Shown piece after piece: positions 1-31,236 of a stretch of DNA of 31,236 nucleotides. Source of the stretch: a virus; IMG/VR virus record IMGVR_UViG_3300029448_000229, positions 1 to 31,236 of that record; one strand, written 5' to 3'. A model generated the notes under the pieces. The model saw only the letters and a list, made by a program, of their open reading frames with translations, had not been told where the DNA came from and searched no databases. The position numbers and the translations under genes are program-made. Position 1 is the stretch's first letter; each line of letters starts with the position of its first letter.

Positions 1-146
1 GAACTAGATGGTCATCTAAATTATGTACAGCGTAAATAAATTATTAGTCGTACCAGGCAAAAGCGACACTACCCTCCCCCTGGCCCAAACCTATAGCGTG
101 GGGGTCTCACAAAAATATTTCCCATTTTTTCATAAAGGAGTTTTAG
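1..146 (+). promoter_or_regulatory. Non-coding leader upstream of the first late gene
   Basis: No gene fits here. Visible elements are the right part of the GT-centred dyad (TAGATG at 5-10, CATCTA at 13-18, TGTACA at 24-29), a pair CCAGG (51-55) and CCTGG (79-83) that could close a loop, and a run CCCCC (76-80) that could pair with GGGGG (100-104). An AAAGGAG ribosome site lies just before the ATG at 147. I could not find a convincing sigma70-type promoter, so the leader role is inferred from position. Confidence 0.4.
2..99. repeat. Left copy of the 98-bp terminal overlap
   Basis: These 98 bases recur exactly at 31139-31236, in the same orientation. The base before the repeat differs (g at 1, a at 31138). 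The simplest reading is the overlap of a circular or circularly permuted assembly, giving a unique length of about 31,138 bp. A true short direct terminal repeat cannot be excluded from sequence alone. Confidence 0.9.
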
Positions 147-407
147 ATGGATAAAGAAACATTAGACTTAGTTCAAGCTAAGAATTACACCGACAAGGAA
201 GGCAATGAGAAGACCCAGTGGATTAAGGTAGGCAAGCTGTTTACCAAGATGGGTGTTCCGAGTTCTATGAAATTAGATTGTTATCCTATACCTGATGACA
301 AGGGTGAAGTATGGCTAAAGATATTTCCAAAAGATTATAAGGCTGTAGACCAGGCTAATGGTTTTGATAGTAGTAATGCAACCCTGGAGAGTGATATTGA
401 CTTCTAA
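147..407 (+). CDS. Small SSB-like (possible OB-fold) protein
   Basis: 86-residue acidic protein with a good AAAGGAG ribosome site. A central beta-rich stretch (residues about 13-63: YTDKEGNEKTQWIKVG, then a Lys/Asp/Pro segment ending in IFPKD) resembles small single-strand-binding-like proteins that are common in environmental phages. The last six residues, ESDIDF, recall the acidic SSB tail that docks partner proteins (DDDIPF in E. coli). If so it could protect single strands during RecT/exonuclease recombination, although it sits at the head of the packaging block. The family match is from memory and the tail is short, so the role is tentative. Confidence 0.5.
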   Translation: MDKETLDLVQAKNYTDKEGNEKTQWIKVGKLFTKMGVPSSMKLDCYPIPDDKGEVWLKIFPKDYKAVDQANGFDSSNATLESDIDF

Positions 408-804
408 GAGTAGAGTTATTCCCAAGATGAATAGTCTTGGTGGTGTAAGAGATATCAAGAAAAAGTTAAGAGGATCAGATGTTATATTTGAAAATAGGGA
501 GAAGCTTGCAGAAGCTCTACTATCGATTAGTCAGGCAAAAGTTACTGATGTTGTGGATTGGGATGATCAAGGCAAGGTTACTATTAAGAATATGGATGAA
601 ATACCGGAGCATGCACTACAATCCATTAAGAAGATTAAAGCGAGACCAGTGGGTGATAATTACGAAGTCGAAATCGAAATGATTGATAAAGTAAGAGTTC
701 TGCAAATGCTGGCTAAGAGTGCTGGTATTTTGGATAAGGAACATGAAAGTGAGAAGCCGAGTGTCATAGAAGTTAACATGGTTGGACCTAATGACAAAAC
801 TTAA
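397..804 (+). CDS. terS: Putative terminase small subunit
   Basis: About 135 residues if translation starts at TTG 397, which has GGAGA six bases upstream and overlaps the previous stop; the alternative is ATG 427 (125 residues), which has a poor ribosome site. The C-terminal part (EIEMIDKVRVLQMLAKSAGILDK) has the look of the end of phage terminase small subunits, where a helix with an LQ/LL-A pattern precedes a short tail. The small subunit binds phage DNA and hands it to the large subunit. Its place just before the large-subunit block supports the call. The gene between it and the large subunit is a GNAT protein, which is unusual. Confidence 0.6.
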   Translation: MTSKSRVIPKMNSLGGVRDIKKKLRGSDVIFENREKLAEALLSISQAKVTDVVDWDDQGKVTIKNMDEIPEHALQSIKKIKARPVGDNYEVEIEMIDKVRVLQMLAKSAGILDKEHESEKPSVIEVNMVGPNDKT

Positions 805-1249
805 TGCTATTCCCATATCATTGAAAGATAGTAATGAATATATTGAAAACTTTCATAGACATAACAAACCAGTACAAGGCAGTAAATTTTCTATTGGTTG
901 TATTTACCAGGATAAATTAGTTGGAGTTTGTATTGTTGGTAGACCTATATCAAGATTCAAAGATGATGGAGTTACAGCCGAAGTTACAAGAACTTGTGTA
1001 TTTGATGATGCTCCAAAGGGTGTAAATAGTTTTTTATATGCCAGGGCTTGGAGAGCTTGGAAGGCTATGGGTGGCAAAAGAATAATCACATATACCCTTC
1101 AGTCTGAAAGTGGTGCATCTCTTAGAGGGGCTGGCTGGAAAGTATTACATGAAGTTGAGATAAATAATAATCAAGGCTGGTTATCAAGAGATAACAGAAA
1201 ATTACAAGACGTTTCAAAACAACCTAAATTTTGCTGGATGTATGCATAA
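791..1249 (+). CDS. GNAT-fold acyltransferase-like protein, XF1762/Mom-like
   Basis: 152 residues from ATG 791, which overlaps the terminase small gene by 14 bases. The pattern is distinctive: FHRHN (21-25), FSIG, GRPISR (50-55), DDG, EVTR (64-67), ITYTL (99-103) and SGASLRGAGW (107-116). It matches the XF1762 family of GNAT-fold proteins as I know it, which resembles the Mu Mom DNA modification protein. Mom changes adenines in phage DNA to block host restriction. Lying between the two terminase genes, this protein could modify DNA before packaging. That function is inference; the GNAT-family call is the firmer part. Confidence 0.65.
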   Translation: MTKLNAIPISLKDSNEYIENFHRHNKPVQGSKFSIGCIYQDKLVGVCIVGRPISRFKDDGVTAEVTRTCVFDDAPKGVNSFLYARAWRAWKAMGGKRIITYTLQSESGASLRGAGWKVLHEVEINNNQGWLSRDNRKLQDVSKQPKFCWMYA

Positions 1250-2766
1250 TGGAAAAACCTGATAAATTAAATTTAGATTTTAGCACCTCACCTACAGTGT
1301 GGAAGTTCTTAAAGGATGATAGCTTTGTTAGAGGATTGATTGGTCCGGTGGGGTCAGGTAAGTCCTATGCTAGTTGTGCTGAGGTGTTTAAAAGGGCTGT
1401 ACAGCAAAAGCCGTCACCCAGGGATGGTGTAAGATATTCTAGGTTTGTTGTTGTAAGAAACAGTTATCCTATGCTCAAAACGACTACGATAAAAACCTGG
1501 CTGGAATTATTCCCTGAGAATATTTGGGGTAATTTGCATTGGTCTCCACCGATCAAACATCATCTAAAACTGCCGGCTAGAGGTAATGCATCCGGTATAG
1601 ATTGTGAAGTAATATTTCTTGCATTAGATCAACCCAAGGACCAACGTAAATTGCTTTCTATGGAACTTACTGGGGCATTTGTAAATGAAGCACGAGAGCT
1701 TCCAAAAGCTGTTATTGATGGGTTGTCTCATAGGGTAGGAAGATATCCTTCTATGGCCGATGGTGGGTGTACCTGGCGAGGTATATGGATGGATAGCAAC
1801 CCATGTGACGATGATCACTGGCTGTATAAGGTTGCTGAAAAAGAAAGGCCTAAAGGTAAGTTTGCCTGGCATTTTTACCGGCAACCAGGTGGAGTGCTTG
1901 AAGTGCCATTGAAAGATGTTCCAAAAGAAATACCGGAAGCCCAGGGATATATATCGGCTGGTGGTAAATGGTTTAAAACTAATCCTAAAGCTGAGAACTT
2001 ACATAATCTGCCGGATGGATATTATGATCAGTTGCTAGGTGGTAAGAATCTAGATTGGGTAAGATGTTATGCTGAAGGCAAGTATACTTATGTCCAGGAA
2101 GGCAGACCAGTATGGCCTGAATATGATGACAGCACTATGTCGGCTGATCTTGTCGTTGATGAGAATATACCAGTGCAAGTTGGATTAGACTTTGGATTGA
2201 CACCCTCGGCAGTCTTTGCTCAGAAAATGCCTAATGGAGCTTGGCATGTACTGCATGAAGTTGTCACTTTCGATATGGGCCTGGATAGATTTGTAAATAT
2301 TTTAAAATCAGAAATGGCTATCAGGTTTCCCAATAATGAATTTATGGTTTGGGGTGATCCGGCTGGTGCTTCAAGAGAAGGTATCTATGAGCAGACATCT
2401 TTTGATTTTTTAAAGACCAATGGCATATTAGCCAGGCCGACTGCCACTAATGATTTCAAAGTTAGAAGAGAAGCTGTGGCCATGCCCATGAATAGATTGA
2501 TACAAGGCAAGCCTGGGTTTTTGGTAAATAGAAAATGTCTTAGACTTAGAAAATCTTTAGCTGGTGGTTATCACTTTACCAGGGTAGCTGTAGGGGCTGG
2601 CCAGGAACGCTACAAAGATAGGCCGAATAAAAACGAACACAGTCATGTTGGAGACAGTGTTGGCTATTGTCTGCTTGGTGGTGGTGAAATGAGAAGAATG
2701 ACTAGAGGAACAAGAACTTTTACTCAGCCCATAGTAGCCCAAACAGATTTTAACGTATTTGCATGA
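1249..2766 (+). CDS. terL: Terminase large subunit
   Basis: 505 residues; ATG 1249 overlaps the preceding stop (TAATG), and no good ribosome site is seen, so coupling is likely. The ATPase domain has a Walker A motif GPVGSGKS at residues 32-39 and an acidic Walker B/catalytic segment with VNEARE at about 145-150. The RNase H-like nuclease domain shows LDFG (Asp about 314), GDPAG (Asp about 370) and HVGDSVGY (Asp about 469), the expected acidic triad. It packages DNA into the prohead and cuts it. Length and motif order are normal for the family. Confidence 0.93.
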   Translation: MEKPDKLNLDFSTSPTVWKFLKDDSFVRGLIGPVGSGKSYASCAEVFKRAVQQKPSPRDGVRYSRFVVVRNSYPMLKTTTIKTWLELFPENIWGNLHWSPPIKHHLKLPARGNASGIDCEVIFLALDQPKDQRKLLSMELTGAFVNEARELPKAVIDGLSHRVGRYPSMADGGCTWRGIWMDSNPCDDDHWLYKVAEKERPKGKFAWHFYRQPGGVLEVPLKDVPKEIPEAQGYISAGGKWFKTNPKAENLHNLPDGYYDQLLGGKNLDWVRCYAEGKYTYVQEGRPVWPEYDDSTMSADLVVDENIPVQVGLDFGLTPSAVFAQKMPNGAWHVLHEVVTFDMGLDRFVNILKSEMAIRFPNNEFMVWGDPAGASREGIYEQTSFDFLKTNGILARPTATNDFKVRREAVAMPMNRLIQGKPGFLVNRKCLRLRKSLAGGYHFTRVAVGAGQERYKDRPNKNEHSHVGDSVGYCLLGGGEMRRMTRGTRTFTQPIVAQTDFNVFA

Positions 2767-24432: not shown

Positions 24433-24651
24433 GTCTAGAGCTATTGCTCTTTTACGACCAGGTAGTTTTTTAATCCATCCTCTTTCTTGCATACCTTTAA
24501 GATGAAATTGTATTGTTGATATTGCAACGATATTAAAGTGTTCAGCTATTTCCCATTGCATAGGCATCTCACCTTTTTCTTGATAGTAGTCTTTCATGAA
24601 ATGAAAAATTTGATTTTGTTTTTTAGTCATTGGTATCTTTGTCTGCGACAT
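24406..24651 (-). CDS. Stand-alone LexA-type DNA-binding domain protein
   Basis: 81 residues. MTKKQNQIFHFMKDYYQEKGEMPMQWEIAEHFNIVAISTIQFHLKGMQERGWIKKLPGRKRAI follows the LexA winged-helix domain through and through (LxxxQxxILxFI...xGxxPxxxEIAxxxx..S..TVxxHLxxLxxKGxIxxxPGxxRAI). The autoprotease domain of LexA is missing, so cleavage in the SOS response could not inactivate it directly. It overlaps recT by 29 bases and ends head-on inside the lysozyme gene. It probably regulates phage or host SOS-box promoters. Targets are not visible. Confidence 0.8.
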   Translation of the reverse strand: MSQTKIPMTKKQNQIFHFMKDYYQEKGEMPMQWEIAEHFNIVAISTIQFHLKGMQERGWIKKLPGRKRAIALDLDGLHPIN

Positions 24652-25495
24652 AGTACTTCTCCATTTCCATTTCTATTTCTGATTGTTCTAAAGAATTAAG
24701 CTTGGCAATCTCATCCATATTTTTTTGTCTAAGATCGTTGAACAAAATATTTTTTTTGTCCTGGCTGTTATTGCTTTTCTCGATTTGAGATAATGTATCT
24801 ACAAACTTCATGATGAAATCACTGGCATTGGCATAAACAATAGGTTCATGTGGGCCAATAAAATGCATTATGTATTTAACGTCAGTCTTAGCCTTCTCTA
24901 TAGACTTAACCTTGTTTTTGATATCATCAATCACATCAGTATTCTTACTGCTATCAGTGACGTTCTTAGGCTCTTTTTTTTCAGGATAATCTTGAGCTTC
25001 CTCGGCAGTGATCAAACCTTTGATGGCATCCGGAAAAGCATCCCTTACAGCAAAGCCCCTGGCCCTGAGTTGTAACATTCTTTTAGGATAGTTTTTCCAA
25101 GGACCAGGTTTGTTAGTCAAGCCGGCTCGCTGTGCATCCTTGTAAGAAAATTCAGAAGTTGTTTCCTCTACCTCACCATGCACATTTCTTTTGACCTGGC
25201 AGACAGCCTTATCTTCTTCTTCAATATATGTTTCAGTGATACCTCTAAAATCAGGATGAGCTTTACAGACAGCTATCAATGCATCTCCCCATAGTGAAGG
25301 TCTGCCATTTATAACAGCAATGTTCTGAAGAGCTTGCATAGGTGCTAGACCGATCTCATAGCCCCACTGAATAGCCACCAGGATATTATTAGGTTTACCC
25401 TGGAAGTCTTTTGGTATGTGTGATGATGTTGCTATGAACTTTGAGAACTCCATAGCTTCAGTCATGTTGGTTGGATTTAAAGTTGGTAACGACAT
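24623..25495 (-). CDS. recT: RecT-family single-strand annealing protein
   Basis: 290 residues, AAGGAG six bases before the start. The opening MTEAMEFSKFIATSSHIPKDFQGKPNNILVAIQWGYEIGLAPMQALQNIAVINGRPSLWGDALIAVCKAHPDF and KYPKRMLQLRARGFAVRDAFPDAIKGL-type block (PGPWKNYPKRMLQLRARGFAVRDAFPDAIKGLITAEEA) are textbook RecT. The C-terminal 100 residues are Lys/Asp-rich and variable. It anneals complementary single strands and pairs with the exonuclease gene upstream for recombination-dependent replication or repair. Confidence 0.93.
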   Translation of the reverse strand: MSLPTLNPTNMTEAMEFSKFIATSSHIPKDFQGKPNNILVAIQWGYEIGLAPMQALQNIAVINGRPSLWGDALIAVCKAHPDFRGITETYIEEEDKAVCQVKRNVHGEVEETTSEFSYKDAQRAGLTNKPGPWKNYPKRMLQLRARGFAVRDAFPDAIKGLITAEEAQDYPEKKEPKNVTDSSKNTDVIDDIKNKVKSIEKAKTDVKYIMHFIGPHEPIVYANASDFIMKFVDTLSQIEKSNNSQDKKNILFNDLRQKNMDEIAKLNSLEQSEIEMEMEKYYVADKDTND

Positions 25496-26422
25496 TTAGT
25501 TCTCCTTCTTTTCTATTTTAAATCTTCTGTAATAAGATGCTTCCTTGGCCGGCACGATCTTCTCAGGTTGTGCTTTTCTTTTAACGATAGGATGAAGTAT
25601 TTTGTACTCCCCTATCTCAGCCATCTCAGCATCGTTTTGTTCCATAACAAGTTCTAATGCTTCCTGGCATTCTTGCCTGGTAGTAGTCCATTCCCTTACT
25701 TCAGCATCAGCCTTGGCCCAATCCATTGCTATACGAATGACTTCATTCTTAGTCTTTAAATGGTCCAGGTTTATGGTGTAAGGTTTGCCATTATCTAATG
25801 GTGGGTAAGGCTCATCCAGGTCTACCTTCTGCCAAAACTCAGTAACCTTTTCCATAATGATATTATGAAGTTCTTGATCAGCTTTGTATGGCACTAGGTG
25901 AAGACGTTGTGATTTACCAAAGATTGCAATGATGCCCCACTTCAACCCACTACATAATAACTGTGTCTGAAGCTGTATTACCTGGTCATGCCTGGGAAAG
26001 TCATCAGTGTTTGTTGTCTTTATTTCTAATGCACCCATACCAGTTAAAATCATATGGCCTTTAGTCTGAGGGTCTTGCATTGTGATCTCACCATCTATCT
26101 GCACGATAGCATCAAGAGAAGCACATAAACCCAGGTCAGGTAATCTATGACCATCAGTTACTTCATGTAACCTTACATCGACAACACCCTCACCTATCTT
26201 AGCAAGCTTATCTAATGACCAATCAATTAGTACTGGTTCAAAACGATCACCTCGTTCTTTTGCTTCTGAGTTGAAATCTGATTCAATAAAGGGTATACCT
26301 TGTTTTGCATATAAAGTTTTTTGTCTTTCTCTTTCATTGGTAGAAAATTTAGTCTGACCTAAAACTATAGCTGGAACTCTTGATGCTCCTAATTCTTTTG
26401 CATCGTCTGAATATTTAGCCAT
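25496..26422 (-). CDS. YqaJ-type exonuclease (RecE/lambda Exo partner of RecT)
   Basis: 308 residues, GGAG six bases before ATG. PD-(D/E)XK layout: Glu62 in ERGDRFEPVLI, Asp104 in CASLDAIV, and ALEIKT with Glu133 and Lys135, followed by Q152 in VIQLQTQLLCSGLKWGIIAIF, the YqaJ helix. It should digest one strand from double-strand ends to give the single strands that RecT uses. The gene directly before recT on the same strand supports the pair. The region after residue 200 is helical and variable. Confidence 0.9.
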   Translation of the reverse strand: MAKYSDDAKELGASRVPAIVLGQTKFSTNERERQKTLYAKQGIPFIESDFNSEAKERGDRFEPVLIDWSLDKLAKIGEGVVDVRLHEVTDGHRLPDLGLCASLDAIVQIDGEITMQDPQTKGHMILTGMGALEIKTTNTDDFPRHDQVIQLQTQLLCSGLKWGIIAIFGKSQRLHLVPYKADQELHNIIMEKVTEFWQKVDLDEPYPPLDNGKPYTINLDHLKTKNEVIRIAMDWAKADAEVREWTTTRQECQEALELVMEQNDAEMAEIGEYKILHPIVKRKAQPEKIVPAKEASYYRRFKIEKKEN

Positions 26423-26666
26423 TTATCACTCCATAATTAAGAGCAAAACAAGCATCATCAATTAGACACACTACATGTAGTAGGTAATAGATGTAGACCA
26501 TTGCAAAAATAGATGCTAAAATATAACCAACCACCCTCAATGCTTTTACAAAAGCTAGAGGGCTGTGCCAAAATGTACTGAATCTCTGTGTTACATTGTA
26601 TATATTATGCGACAAACTGTTATTATTATAACGGCCCTTGTCGCTAAGTGTTTGTTTACTAACCAT
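26415..26666 (-). CDS. Small single-pass membrane protein, unknown
   Basis: 83 residues if started at ATG 26666, which has GAAGGAG seven bases upstream. The same frame is open further up to 26786, but that part overlaps the likely promoter and has a weaker start. Residues about 47-71 (ALRVVGYILASIFAMVYIYYLLHVVCLI) are a membrane helix, after a polar Asn/Ser-rich N-terminus. It overlaps the exonuclease gene by eight bases. It could anchor or inhibit something at the membrane (for instance superinfection exclusion), but nothing in the sequence tells which. Confidence 0.55.
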   Translation of the reverse strand: MVSKQTLSDKGRYNNNSLSHNIYNVTQRFSTFWHSPLAFVKALRVVGYILASIFAMVYIYYLLHVVCLIDDACFALNYGVING

Positions 26667-27184: not shown

Positions 27185-27735
27185 GATTGCACCTCGGATT
27201 TAACGATATCAATTTGATAGCCATCATCAATGCTTTGCGAGTTGGCAGTATCATCGGTATTCAGTGCCAAGTCAGTTTGCATCAATTGCTCAAAATTATA
27301 TAAAGCATTAAAAGCTGTACCAATAGTTGATTTGGTTATTTCTTTTCGCCACATGCAGTACTCAATGGTTTTGTCTACAAGCTCCGGTGTTGCTCGGCAT
27401 TGAACAGAATTACTTGTCCTTTTTACTTGCACCCAGCCTTCAGCTTCACACTCATTTATAATGGTTGCAACTGACTGTCTATTGGTATGCATATCATCAA
27501 CAAGCTCAGTTATAGTGTACCACCTATTGGCATAGACAGCGTATGTCATCCACCTGGCAAAAGCATTTCTAAGTGGAGTTGAATTAAAATATCTTTGTAC
27601 TTTATTATCCATCCTGGTTTGTCTTGCCTTATGTGTTGCCATCTCTATTTCTAAAGTTTTAAGCACATATTGATCTTCAAGAAACTGGTGTATTTCATTA
27701 GCTGAATTATTTCTTGTTTCTGTATTTCTTACCAT
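27181..27735 (-). CDS. Winged-helix (MarR-like) DNA-binding protein
   Basis: 184 residues. Residues about 60-125 (FARWMTYAVYANRWYTITELVDDMHTNRQSVATIINECEAEGWVQVKRTSNSVQCRATPELVD) fit a winged helix: the helix-turn-helix has TITELVDDMHTNRQSVATIINECEAEGWV and a wing follows. The N-terminus is a charged helix; the C-terminus (150-184) is acidic and loose. It starts one base inside the recombinase stop (TAATG). It may be a transcription factor for the early genes; its operator is not known. Confidence 0.7.
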   Translation of the reverse strand: MVRNTETRNNSANEIHQFLEDQYVLKTLEIEMATHKARQTRMDNKVQRYFNSTPLRNAFARWMTYAVYANRWYTITELVDDMHTNRQSVATIINECEAEGWVQVKRTSNSVQCRATPELVDKTIEYCMWRKEITKSTIGTAFNALYNFEQLMQTDLALNTDDTANSQSIDDGYQIDIVKSEVQS

Positions 27736-28481
27736 TATTTATTTTCCAATCTTTTAACGACATTACGAACTGTAGATGCATACCAATCACCACCTCTTGC
27801 CGTAGTTACACCCATTTGATTTAATTGTATGGCAATCTCTCTATAGCTATCACCACATTGTAGAAGCTTCATGATTGTAGGACCTACGATCTTAGCAAAG
27901 CCGTCACTCTCAGCCTTCACCACTTCACCAGCCCTGGCCCTTGCCTTATCCATATGATCATGGATACCAAGCTTAGTGATAGTACGGCCTGACCTGGTTT
28001 GATACTCGCCCTTCTCCCTGAGTTCTTGTTTGATTTTACTGAGACCTGACTTAGTTCTTTCAGCTATCCTACGTCTTTCCATAGCACCGAAGTAAGCTTT
28101 CATAGAAAACCTTTCCCAGCTTTCGGATATCTCAGGCTCATTGCAGACAACAAATTTGATCTTGCCCTTCTCCAGCTTCTCTTCAAAGAAATCTAATGTG
28201 TCTTGCATCCTACGACTGAATCTCTCCAGGTCAGCTACAATAATAGTAGCCTTGTTAACCTTGGCAGTCTCAATACATTTAGATAGCTCCGGTCTTTTAG
28301 AAGGTGAAATTTTACCTGAGACACCCTCTTCCTTAAACCACATAACCTGGTGATCACCACCATTGAGCCACTTCTTGATTTCCATTTCTTGCCTGGCAAC
28401 ATCCTGGCTGTCTGTCGATACCCTTACATAGGCACAATAGACACCAGCATGTTCATGACCGGCTGTATTCTTAACCCTCAT
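27735..28481 (-). CDS. Serine site-specific recombinase (resolvase/invertase family)
   Basis: 248 residues from ATG 28481, preferred because a GGGAG site precedes it and this 17-bp start context is duplicated at 28798-28814; an upstream start at 28508 is less likely. The catalytic domain has YVRVSTDSQ with the nucleophile Ser22, EEGVSGKISPSKRPEL (51-66), and ADLERFSRR (83-91) with Arg87 and Arg90. The E helix (MERRRIAERTKSGLSKIKQEL) follows. A C-terminal helix-turn-helix (GDSYREIAIQLNQMGVTTARGGDWYASTVRNVVKRL) binds the site. Too short for a large serine integrase; resolution of multimers, inversion or a simple integration are open. Confidence 0.9.
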   Translation of the reverse strand: MRVKNTAGHEHAGVYCAYVRVSTDSQDVARQEMEIKKWLNGGDHQVMWFKEEGVSGKISPSKRPELSKCIETAKVNKATIIVADLERFSRRMQDTLDFFEEKLEKGKIKFVVCNEPEISESWERFSMKAYFGAMERRRIAERTKSGLSKIKQELREKGEYQTRSGRTITKLGIHDHMDKARARAGEVVKAESDGFAKIVGPTIMKLLQCGDSYREIAIQLNQMGVTTARGGDWYASTVRNVVKRLENK

Positions 28482-29117: not shown

Positions 29118-29237
29118 TTTTAGCCCCTTTTTTGTTAACACCGATGTAAGACCGATGCCTTACCTATATACATATAGCACAACGATATCTAATATACAAG
29201 TCCTAGATGTAAAAAAAGTTAAATAGGTTATGTACAC
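29118..29237. promoter_or_regulatory. Divergent intergenic control region
   Basis: 120 bases between divergent blocks. It has an inverted repeat GTAAG (29146-29150) / CTTAC (29159-29163), a repeated ACCGATG (29140-29146 and 29151-29157), and a very AT-rich tract. On the minus strand TTGTAT and TATATG are 17 bases apart just upstream of the GTAAG/CTTAC repeat, so a promoter for the minus operon is possible, with the repeat as operator. The rightward start at 29238 has only a weak ribosome site. No firm assignment. Confidence 0.45.
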
Positions 29238-29495
29238 ATGGAAGATGAGATAGAAATAGTTCCCTTTTATTGTCGGTTATCAAAAGGTTGTTACGATATG
29301 TTAAAGCTTCAGGCAAAGAAAGAACGCTGGTCAATGGCTGGATTAACTGAGCATATATTACGAGAGGGATTAAGGAAAAGAATACCTGGATCAATTAGTA
29401 ACGATATCATATTCGATGATCAAAAGGAGCAGATAGAAGATTTACATATAGCTGAGAAGTTAGATCAGATGGTTAAAGCCAATGACAAAGTATAG
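29238..29495 (+). CDS. Ribbon-helix-helix-like small DNA-binding protein
   Basis: 85 residues. EIVPFYCRLSKGCYDMLKLQAKKERWSMAGLTEHILREGLRKRI is a ribbon followed by two helices: VPFYCRLS strand, GCYDMLKLQAKKERW helix, SMAGLTEHILREGLRKR helix, like Arc/CopG-type repressors. The remaining 35 residues are acidic. It is the first gene rightwards of the divergent region and overlaps the DUF1064 gene by 14 bases. It may control one or both promoters there. Confidence in the RHH fold is moderate. Confidence 0.65.
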   Translation: MEDEIEIVPFYCRLSKGCYDMLKLQAKKERWSMAGLTEHILREGLRKRIPGSISNDIIFDDQKEQIEDLHIAEKLDQMVKANDKV

Positions 29496-29817
29496 AGCTA
29501 TCAGGACTACAGTCGATGGGATTACTTTCGATAGTAAAAGAGAAGCCAATAGATATTCCGAGCTAAAGATGATGGAGAAGGCCGGCATCATAAACAGTTT
29601 AAAGTTACAGCCTGAATTTAAATGTCAGATAAATGGCAAGAAGATATGCACATATAAAGCAGACTTTGAATATCTAATGGTCGATGATATCGGACCTCAA
29701 GGACAAATAGGTTATTACATAGTTGAAGATGTAAAGGGATTTAAGACACCAGTTTATAAATTAAAGAAGAAGCTGGTCGAAGCATTGTTTCCTGGCACAT
29801 TTATAAAAGAGATATAG
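29482..29817 (+). CDS. DUF1064-type PD-(D/E)XK nuclease
   Basis: 111 residues. TTVDGITFDSKREANRYSELKMMEKAGIINSLKLQPEFKCQINGKKICTYKADFEYLMVDD, YYIVEDVKGFKTPVYKLKKKLVEALFPG contains the whole DUF1064 pattern: FDSKxEAxRYxEL, QP, YxADFxY, and (V)xDVKGxxT...KxK. Probable catalytic residues are Glu21, Asp61, Asp83 and Lys85. Members are found in phages where other genomes have RusA-like Holliday junction resolvases, so a junction-cutting role is plausible. It fits the RecT/exonuclease system here. Confidence 0.85.
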   Translation: MTKYRAIRTTVDGITFDSKREANRYSELKMMEKAGIINSLKLQPEFKCQINGKKICTYKADFEYLMVDDIGPQGQIGYYIVEDVKGFKTPVYKLKKKLVEALFPGTFIKEI

Positions 29818-30009
29818 ATGCCCTTTGATAATGGATTGACTGCCAAACAACAAGCCGAGATGGATGCAAAGTATGAGAATCTAATGGCCCAGGTAAAAGA
29901 AATAAATTTGAAATTATATAGAAAGCTCCGAGCTAATGAGCTACCTGGGTTTATTTCAGATACAGTTTATGTGGCTAACCAGGATGATCAACTAGAGATG
30001 TTGTTATGA
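29818..30009 (+). CDS. Small helical protein, unknown
   Basis: 63 residues, directly after the nuclease stop and overlapping the initiator start (ATGA). GLTAKQQAEMDAKYENLMAQVKEINLKLYRKLRANELPGFISDTVYVANQDDQLEML is mainly helical with an acidic end. No family recognised. The tight spacing argues that it is translated, perhaps as a partner of the initiator. Confidence 0.6.
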   Translation: MPFDNGLTAKQQAEMDAKYENLMAQVKEINLKLYRKLRANELPGFISDTVYVANQDDQLEMLL

Positions 30010-31130
30010 ATATGATTGATGTTCCTAAGATTGATAAGGCCCAGGAGATATTAAAGGCAAGAGAAGAGATCACACTGCCCCCTAAAAAGTATAGGATATC
30101 TAATGAGCAATCACCCTCACCTTACATCAATATACCTTCAAGAGCTTTAGCCGATATTCGTATCCTGGGTAATCCATCAGCACTCCAGGTGTTATGTGTT
30201 TTATGTTCTTATGTCTCAGGTCAATCAGGTACAGCCTTTCCTTCTCAGCTTCTCCTGGCTAAAAGACTAAGCCGGTCTCAGCAAGCAATATCCAGGCAGA
30301 TAGTTAAGCTTATTGATTGGGGATATATAAAGAAGATTATCAATGAGAATGCCCTACGTCAGAAAGGTAAAAAGACAGCTACATATCGTATCATATATGA
30401 TCCAGGTATAACCGATACTCAGCTTATCAAGACATCTACTGATCCTATTGTAGAACAGAATAAGGTAGATGCTACACTCAAGAAGATGGAAAAGAAGTAT
30501 GTGAAGTTATCTCCGGCACAAGAAAAGCTTGCTGAAGATATTACCCAGCGATACTTAAAAGATGAGACTGAGTTCTTTCCTTATGAGACAATACACAAAG
30601 CTATGGTCACTTATCTATCAGGTAAACAGACTATTGAAGCCTGGAATAAGATCGGTTGTGGCCTACTTTCACCCATAGAAAAAGGCTATTTAAAAGCCCA
30701 AGATATACAACGTAAGGTTGTGAATAAGAAGGAGTTATACAACACTAGAGGTTGTGCCGATACACAACACAATGATGTTGTACAGAACTATAATACTATA
30801 ACTAATAATATTAATATTAAGGATAAAGTTATTGAATTGTTAAGAAGCTATTCACATGCACTCGATGAAGTCACCAAGACAAGAGGTCAATGGAGATGGA
30901 CCAAGAGAGAAGAAGCAATAGGAGAAGAGATAATCAGGATTGGAGTAACCCAGGAACAGTTCATGTCTGAAGTTGTTAAGGTATTGAAAAGATGCAACCA
31001 GGATAGAACAAGACCTCCATACACACTGGCTTATTTCAGAAGCATATGGTTAACAGAAACAAAACCACCAAAGGATTCTAAGCAATTAATTAAGGGCCTA
31101 GTAAATAAAATGAATACAAGATACACTTAA
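30006..31130 (+). CDS. Winged-helix replication initiator protein
   Basis: 374 residues. Residues about 40-130 (NIPSRALADIRILGNPSALQVLCVLCSYVSGQSGTAFPSQLLLAKRLSRSQQAISRQIVKLIDWGYIKKI...KKTATYRI) form a winged helix of the HTH_36 or lambda O-like kind found in plasmid and phage initiators. A linker (about 230-275, Asn/Lys-rich) has the candidate origin in its DNA. The C-terminal domain (about 278-374: VIELLRSYSHALDEVTKTRGQWRWTKREEAIGEEIIRIGVTQEQF...RTRPPYTLAYFRSIWLTE) should contact host replication proteins. With no polymerase or helicase in the genome, it probably recruits the host machinery. Confidence 0.75.
   Translation: MNMIDVPKIDKAQEILKAREEITLPPKKYRISNEQSPSPYINIPSRALADIRILGNPSALQVLCVLCSYVSGQSGTAFPSQLLLAKRLSRSQQAISRQIVKLIDWGYIKKIINENALRQKGKKTATYRIIYDPGITDTQLIKTSTDPIVEQNKVDATLKKMEKKYVKLSPAQEKLAEDITQRYLKDETEFFPYETIHKAMVTYLSGKQTIEAWNKIGCGLLSPIEKGYLKAQDIQRKVVNKKELYNTRGCADTQHNDVVQNYNTITNNINIKDKVIELLRSYSHALDEVTKTRGQWRWTKREEAIGEEIIRIGVTQEQFMSEVVKVLKRCNQDRTRPPYTLAYFRSIWLTETKPPKDSKQLIKGLVNKMNTRYT
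30739..30830. other. Candidate replication origin inside the initiator gene
   Basis: ACAAC (30739-30743), GTTGT (30751-30755), ACAAC (30764-30768) and GTTGT (30777-30781) alternate at 12 to 13 bp spacing; GTTGTG/CACAAC and ACAACA/TGTTGT are perfect six-base dyads with six-base gaps. They are followed by about 45 bases that are nearly all A and T (from 30785), an unwinding-element look. The place in the linker-coding part of an initiator gene is the lambda/P22 arrangement. Strand slippage and coding limits could also give such a pattern, so it is a candidate only. Confidence 0.45.
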
Positions 31131-31166
31131 TGTACAAAAACTAGATGGTCATCTAAATTATGTACA
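31131..31166. other. 36-bp dyad with central GT: possible recombinase crossover site
   Basis: Structure TGTACA, five bases, TAGATG, GT, CATCTA, five bases, TGTACA. The two 17-base arms around the central GT agree at 14 of 17 positions in inverted orientation. This is the form of a small serine recombinase crossover site, which has inverted arms and a 2-bp centre. It lies in the gap between the initiator gene and the first packaging gene of the closed genome. The link to the recombinase at 27735-28481 is inference. It could instead be a repressor site or terminator stem, although no T-run follows. Confidence 0.5.
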
Positions 31167-31236
31167 GCGTAAATAAATTATTAGTCGTACCAGGCAAAAG
31201 CGACACTACCCTCCCCCTGGCCCAAACCTATAGCGT
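31139..31236. repeat. Right copy of the 98-bp terminal overlap
   Basis: Exact repeat of bases 2-99. It includes most of the dyad at 31131-31166 and the start of the leader upstream of the first gene. Reading across the junction joins the replication initiator gene (ending at 31130) to the packaging genes starting at 147, with an intergenic gap of about 153 bp. Confidence 0.9.

Follow-up and report, generated by a model that had tools for sequence, protein, structure and literature searches.

The window, by which we mean the whole stretch of 31,236 nucleotides that was analysed, is a podophage-type genome with a GC content of 38%, encoding a portal protein of the T7-type family, a terminase, RecT, RecE and a Holliday junction resolvase; a search of the window for a tyrosine integrase found none. 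The genome also encodes a small serine recombinase and a replication initiator, and immediately past the initiator gene, some 2.6 kb away from that of the recombinase, lies the 36-bp dyad considered here (Table 1). Some 60 bp 3' of the dyad there is a block of C and G runs, possibly related to packaging, which is kept in every member of the phage family including the integrated relative described below. Members differ in whether the first run of this block is rich in C or in G; a weak RNA fold covers the 5' part of the block only, and the block has no match in Rfam. A Mom-like DNA modification gene is found at 782-1249, between the two terminase genes, and among the relatives fetched a recognisable counterpart is present only in L054 (100% identical) and L107.

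Table 1. Features of the window discussed in the text, with their positions and strand
Feature	Position	Strand	Remarks
36-bp dyad, proposed crossover site	31131..31166	.	left half 31131-31147, centre GT 31148-31149, right half 31150-31166
Second reading of most of the same dyad through the end overlap	2..29	.	not another site
Small serine recombinase	27735..28481	-	Pfam Resolvase 5e-25; C-terminal HTH with TARGGxWxASTVRN
Second half-site pair, probable autoregulatory operator	29193..29236	.	TATACAAGTCCTAGATG, 10-bp centre, TGTACATAACCTATTTA reversed
Replication initiator (HTH_36)	30006..31130	+	stop codon abuts the dyad
Holliday junction resolvase (RusA type in relatives)	29482..29817	+
RecT-like annealing protein and RecE-like exonuclease	24623..26422	-	downstream of the recombinase, same direction
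Conserved C/G-run block, then GGGGGTCTCACAAAAATATTT	71..124 (also 31208-31236)	+	candidate packaging site or leader
Terminase small subunit	358..804	+
Terminase large subunit	1231..2766	+

The dyad reads TGTACAAAAACTAGATG GT CATCTAAATTATGTACA. The first-pass annotation had described two 17-base arms that match at 14 of 17 places around a lone GT, in the intergenic gap beside the initiator gene, and both points are borne out: the three mismatches fall at arm positions 7, 10 and 11, and the gap extends from the initiator stop codon, which ends at 31130, to the next ORF, which starts at 147. The window holds no second dyad with 17-bp arms matching at 14/17 or better at any centre from 0 to 12 bp, and no further copy of the site with a 2-bp centre. 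Chance expectation was estimated with dinucleotide-preserving shuffles of the window and of the 154-bp intergenic region (2000 shuffles). A shuffled window contained on average 0.08 such dyads when the centre was set at 2 bp, and 1.2 over all centres of 0-12 bp together; shuffling the intergenic region gave a dyad with a 2-bp centre in 0 of 2000 cases, and one with any centre from 0 to 12 in 0.15%. A reading of the dyad as an RNA hairpin was rejected, as the sequence folds but the region does so no better than its shuffles (z 0.39), and a search of Rfam gave no match.

The record is circularly closed by an identical end overlap of 98 bp (2-99 = 31139-31236), so that the right arm seen at 13-29 is the same site as 31150-31166. 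Base 1 is g where position 31138 is a, a difference which had been considered as a possible alternative junction. With g the arm becomes TGTACAAGAACTAGATG, which is the allele of L020, L036, L038, L046-L048, L051 and L054; g also corresponds to the allele TGTACAAG and is the base carried by most close relatives. Because it matches the allele of relatives, the difference is best read as a strain polymorphism, and the contig break as strain variation, although a site-specific exchange between strains could also have caused the break within the left arm. Two independent closed contigs, the window (1-10) and 3300020377_000005 (L018/L057), break inside the left arm of the dyad, both at positions that are polymorphic among relatives, and three more contigs begin 29-66 bp before the dyad. 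These contig ends in or near the dyad could reflect strain variation or recombination.

In the recombinase a catalytic domain of the resolvase type is followed by a short HTH region at the C-terminus. In an alignment of the window protein with 26 relatives (27 sequences), S31, R29, R72, R96 and R99 (numbered on the mechanical ORF) are invariant. The AlphaFold model (pLDDT 81) has a serine-recombinase fold and matches such enzymes as the TP901-1 integrase catalytic domain, Sin and Bxb1. The proteins of the family have 248-257 amino acids and end with the HTH, without the extended C-terminal domains of large serine recombinases, and the gene is found in every family locus that reaches far enough upstream. 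In the tree the family recombinases do not form one clade, those of L137, L124, L134, L103 and the cultured phage MEP301 falling on the side of plasmid enzymes, a placement that is tentative because of long branches.

The gene order recT-recE-recombinase / o85-hjr-initiator-[gap]-terS-terL is common to the IMG/VR relatives, down to about 30% recombinase identity. The first-pass annotation had proposed a search of related phages for the same dyad together with the recombinase gene, and this search found both, the dyad at the same place, in nearly all readable relatives. The dyad lies within or just past the 3' end of the initiator gene, nearly always opens the gap, and in nearly all members is the single best dyad genome-wide. 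The half-site consensus is TGTACAAAACCTAGACG. The arms drift and yet stay symmetric around a fixed spacing of 2 bp, and the centre varies (GT, TT, AA, GA, CA and others), as illustrated by the arms and centres of L030 (TATACAAAACCTAGACG TT), L097 (TGTACAAGCACCAGACG TT), L077 (TTTAGCAACACTAGAGT GA) and L117 (TGTACAAATGGCATACG AA), and by L109, which has TGTGCA in both arms. Since the initiator stop codon stands before the dyad in the window, inside it in L017 and L024 and past it in L137, what is conserved in the dyad is its DNA and not a protein sequence. The centre is non-palindromic in all 27 listed sites. L134 has no clear site and the site assigned to L108 misfits the phage matrix; no such site was found for the recombinases of phAPEC8 and the Actinomycetia phage DSL-LC01, nor in the controls that have no recombinase (Hodr, SI2, VA-RY-3 and Desulfovibrio prophages), and the best pair in BcepC6B scored 13.9, above background. 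In Microcystis phage Mwe-JY31 (L201) a related recombinase is preceded, at a distance of 134 bp, by a 15/17 dyad, TTTTCAAATCTTAAACG CT CGTTTAAGATTTTGAAA, so that the site format reaches an unrelated phage.

The same site format is found with plasmid resolvases. The enzyme of L137, to which the window recombinase is only about 37% identical, shares 47-55% identity with alphaproteobacterial plasmid resolvases, and dyads of the phage type precede several of these: TGTATAAGAACACAACG GA CGTAGGGTTTTTATACA upstream of the resolvase in Phaeobacter and Leisingera, TGTATAAAAACACAACG GT CGTAGCGTGTTTATACA in Paracoccus pPZ04 (L195), a RepABC plasmid without a phage-type initiator, and CGTATAAATCCGAAACG AC CGTTTCGGATTTATACG, matching at 17/17, in Methylobacterium pMNOD05 (L198). 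Of 12 plasmid loci, 8 had a site that was recognised by a matrix built from the phage sites alone, seven of them by a test of the 450 bp upstream (p 0.002 each) and the eighth being L198, where the site reaches the annotated start; one of 120 control windows scored as high. By the matrix a phage-type site was absent in this 12-plasmid test from L197, L199 and L200, and the dyads with a 2-bp axis in L191, L197, L200 and L205 are all weaker (12-13/17). A matrix-free test found dyads of at least 13/17 at a 2-bp centre in 9 of 17 plasmid loci and at odd centres in none of the 17. Upstream of the Vibrio 1.170.O and Calle_1 recombinases there is no such dyad. Outer hexamers close to TGTAYA accompany an HTH segment of the form TARGGxWxA(S/T/A)(T/S)V, and other HTH types go with other hexamers: outer-hexamer matches number 9-12 of 12 for the TARGG type and 2-11 for the others, with a rank-test p of 9e-6, uncorrected for relatedness, which is only a guide because the HTH classes were set after seeing the data and relatedness was ignored.

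Conservation together with the recombinase in phages, the plasmid site format and a hexamer that appears to follow the DNA-binding motif strongly support the dyad as the recombinase's site, as had been proposed, and the window recombinase is very probably its partner, because resolvases of plasmids that do not have this phage's initiator carry the same dyad upstream. The competing possibility that the dyad is bound by the replication initiator, as an origin or an operator, would agree with its position, since in every member it touches or overlaps the initiator gene at its 3' end, with the related half-sites upstream of the initiator operon, and with the several plasmids that also encode an initiator near the resolvase. 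Moreover, within the phages the divergence of the dyad tracks the initiator HTH (Mantel r 0.83), with which its distances correlate best, and the overall phylogeny more closely than it tracks the short recombinase HTH (0.46). Across phages and plasmids, however, the site and its outer hexamer appear to follow the HTH type of the recombinase, even if within phages the initiator correlates equally or better, and the dyad stands upstream of resolvases on replicons with unrelated initiators (pPZ04, pMNOD05), so that we regard binding by the initiator as improbable. Recognition by the terminase, as part of a cos or pac packaging site, appears still more improbable: the dyad does adjoin the terminase genes, 60 bp from the strongly conserved C/G-run block, and some contigs end near one or the other, but dyads also occur on plasmids without terminase genes, and genes inserted between the block and terS leave both dyad and block undisturbed (L019, L038).

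A TerL search of bacterial genomes led to a member of the family integrated in a 186-kb contig of Hyphomicrobiales (TerL 65%; L137, L180-L183; G001:C36:63502-98844). Its structural genes keep the order of the window, and it is adjoined by HflX and MazG genes at one end and by a metallo-hydrolase gene at the other. This prophage is bounded by 16-bp direct repeats, GTCGCATAAGACATAT (63502 and 98829), of which the right one is dif-like, and encodes its own tyrosine integrase at one end, beside the repeat; the dyad, TGTACAAGACCCATCCG GT CGTCTGGCTCCTGTACA, is whole and 8 kb inside. Given the dif-like repeats, the tyrosine integrase and the intact internal dyad, this phage integrates by another enzyme and at another site, and it retains both recombinase and dyad though integrated elsewhere. 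The dyad had been offered as a multimer resolution or an attachment site; the former function is favoured (or circularisation), and the latter is probably not the right one. It is accordingly improbable, about as much so as binding by the initiator, that the dyad is an attP serving for integration into the host chromosome by the serine recombinase. Its non-palindromic 2-bp centre resembles that of serine-integrase att sites and the window has no tyrosine integrase, but in the prophage (a single relative) the dyad is not split at the ends, the recombinase has no long C-terminal part like that of serine integrases, and no host/phage junction was found at the dyad.

We return to the recombinase as the partner, and propose, with a probability of roughly 80%, that the dyad is a crossover site (res- or lox-like) of the phage-encoded small serine recombinase, used for monomerising the phage genome and perhaps for circularising it. 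A recombinase dimer would sit on the dyad, each subunit placing its HTH on the outer TGTACA and covering the inner TAGATG with its catalytic part; exchange between two directly repeated sites would follow cleavage at GT, staggered by 2 bases. As the centre is non-palindromic in 27 of 27 sites, and the centre itself can fix direction in serine recombinases, direct repeats would be resolved, and with one site per genome multimers would be reduced to monomers. A terminally redundant linear genome might likewise be closed to a circle, as by Cre/loxP in phage P1.

The same recombinase probably also represses its own operon, by way of the half-sites of the second pair, which sits in the promoter region from which the recombinase operon and the o85-RusA-initiator operon diverge. 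The left half of this pair is kept in most close relatives and absent from L038 and L046-L048. A lone strong half-site, TTTACAAAAGCTAGAGG, occurs at 26545-26561 within a coding ORF and is kept in L011-L014, L023 and L026-L030; constraint on the coding sequence may be the whole reason. For the recombinase, binding and cutting of the dyad, monomerisation or circularisation of the genome and autoregulation are predicted activities.

What appears to be new, as far as sequence can show, is a system of the res/lox type, with a site adjoining the packaging region, in a lineage of podophages. It gives a likely target to a recombinase that had been annotated without a site across a broad podophage lineage, brings into view a family of compact directional sites with 2-bp centres common to phages and plasmids, and raises the question of why a monomerising recombinase should be needed by a phage that is packaged by terminase. 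A wider picture, which we put forward as a speculative possibility, is that of a widespread and largely marine podophage lineage with a serine counterpart of P1 Cre/lox, in which a directional 36-bp site beside the packaging region would circularise terminally redundant genomes on entry and split the multimers that arise in replication, while exchanging with a pool of plasmid resolvases that use the same site format; if so, phage and plasmid sites of equal centre might recombine.

Among known systems, site I of Tn3/gamma-delta res has inverted half-sites around a 2-bp crossover and is served by a resolvase made of a catalytic domain and an HTH. The phage dyad shares the inverted half-sites, the 2-bp centre and the format of the enzyme, but has 36 bp instead of 28 and a non-palindromic centre, and accessory sites II/III are not seen beside it: there is no further half-site within 150 bp of the dyad, and the only related pair is 1.9 kb off. 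In phage P1, loxP is located near pac. Like loxP, the dyad is a single site in a phage genome, near packaging genes; unlike Cre, the recombinase is a serine and not a tyrosine enzyme, and the centre has 2 bp against 8. No plasmid-borne members of the phage family were found in PLSDB at recognisable identity, which differs from the plasmid prophage of P1. The single site of Cre/loxP has been proposed to keep the P1 genome monomeric (PMC2409434). The cultured relative Methylophilales phage MEP301 (MW452941; TerL 64%) encodes a resolvase-domain protein and has a 12/17 dyad after its initiator, with diverged half-sites (AGTTGCAAGGCTAAAGG GA CGTTTAGCTCTACAACA); its authors took the absence of PF07508 as a hint that the phage might have no working serine recombinase (PMC8024684), and this suspect enzyme now gains a likely target. 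Comparable in format are the plasmid resolvases annotated as 'recombinase family protein' (Phaeobacter pP18_i, Leisingera, Paracoccus pLM20P5 and pPZ04, Methylobacterium pMNOD05), whose dyads, here upstream, share with that of the phage the length of 36 bp and the 2-bp centre and, in most, the outer TGTAYA; the plasmid sites are placed in the recombinase promoter, immediately upstream of the gene, whereas the phage sites lie past the initiator gene, beside the packaging genes.
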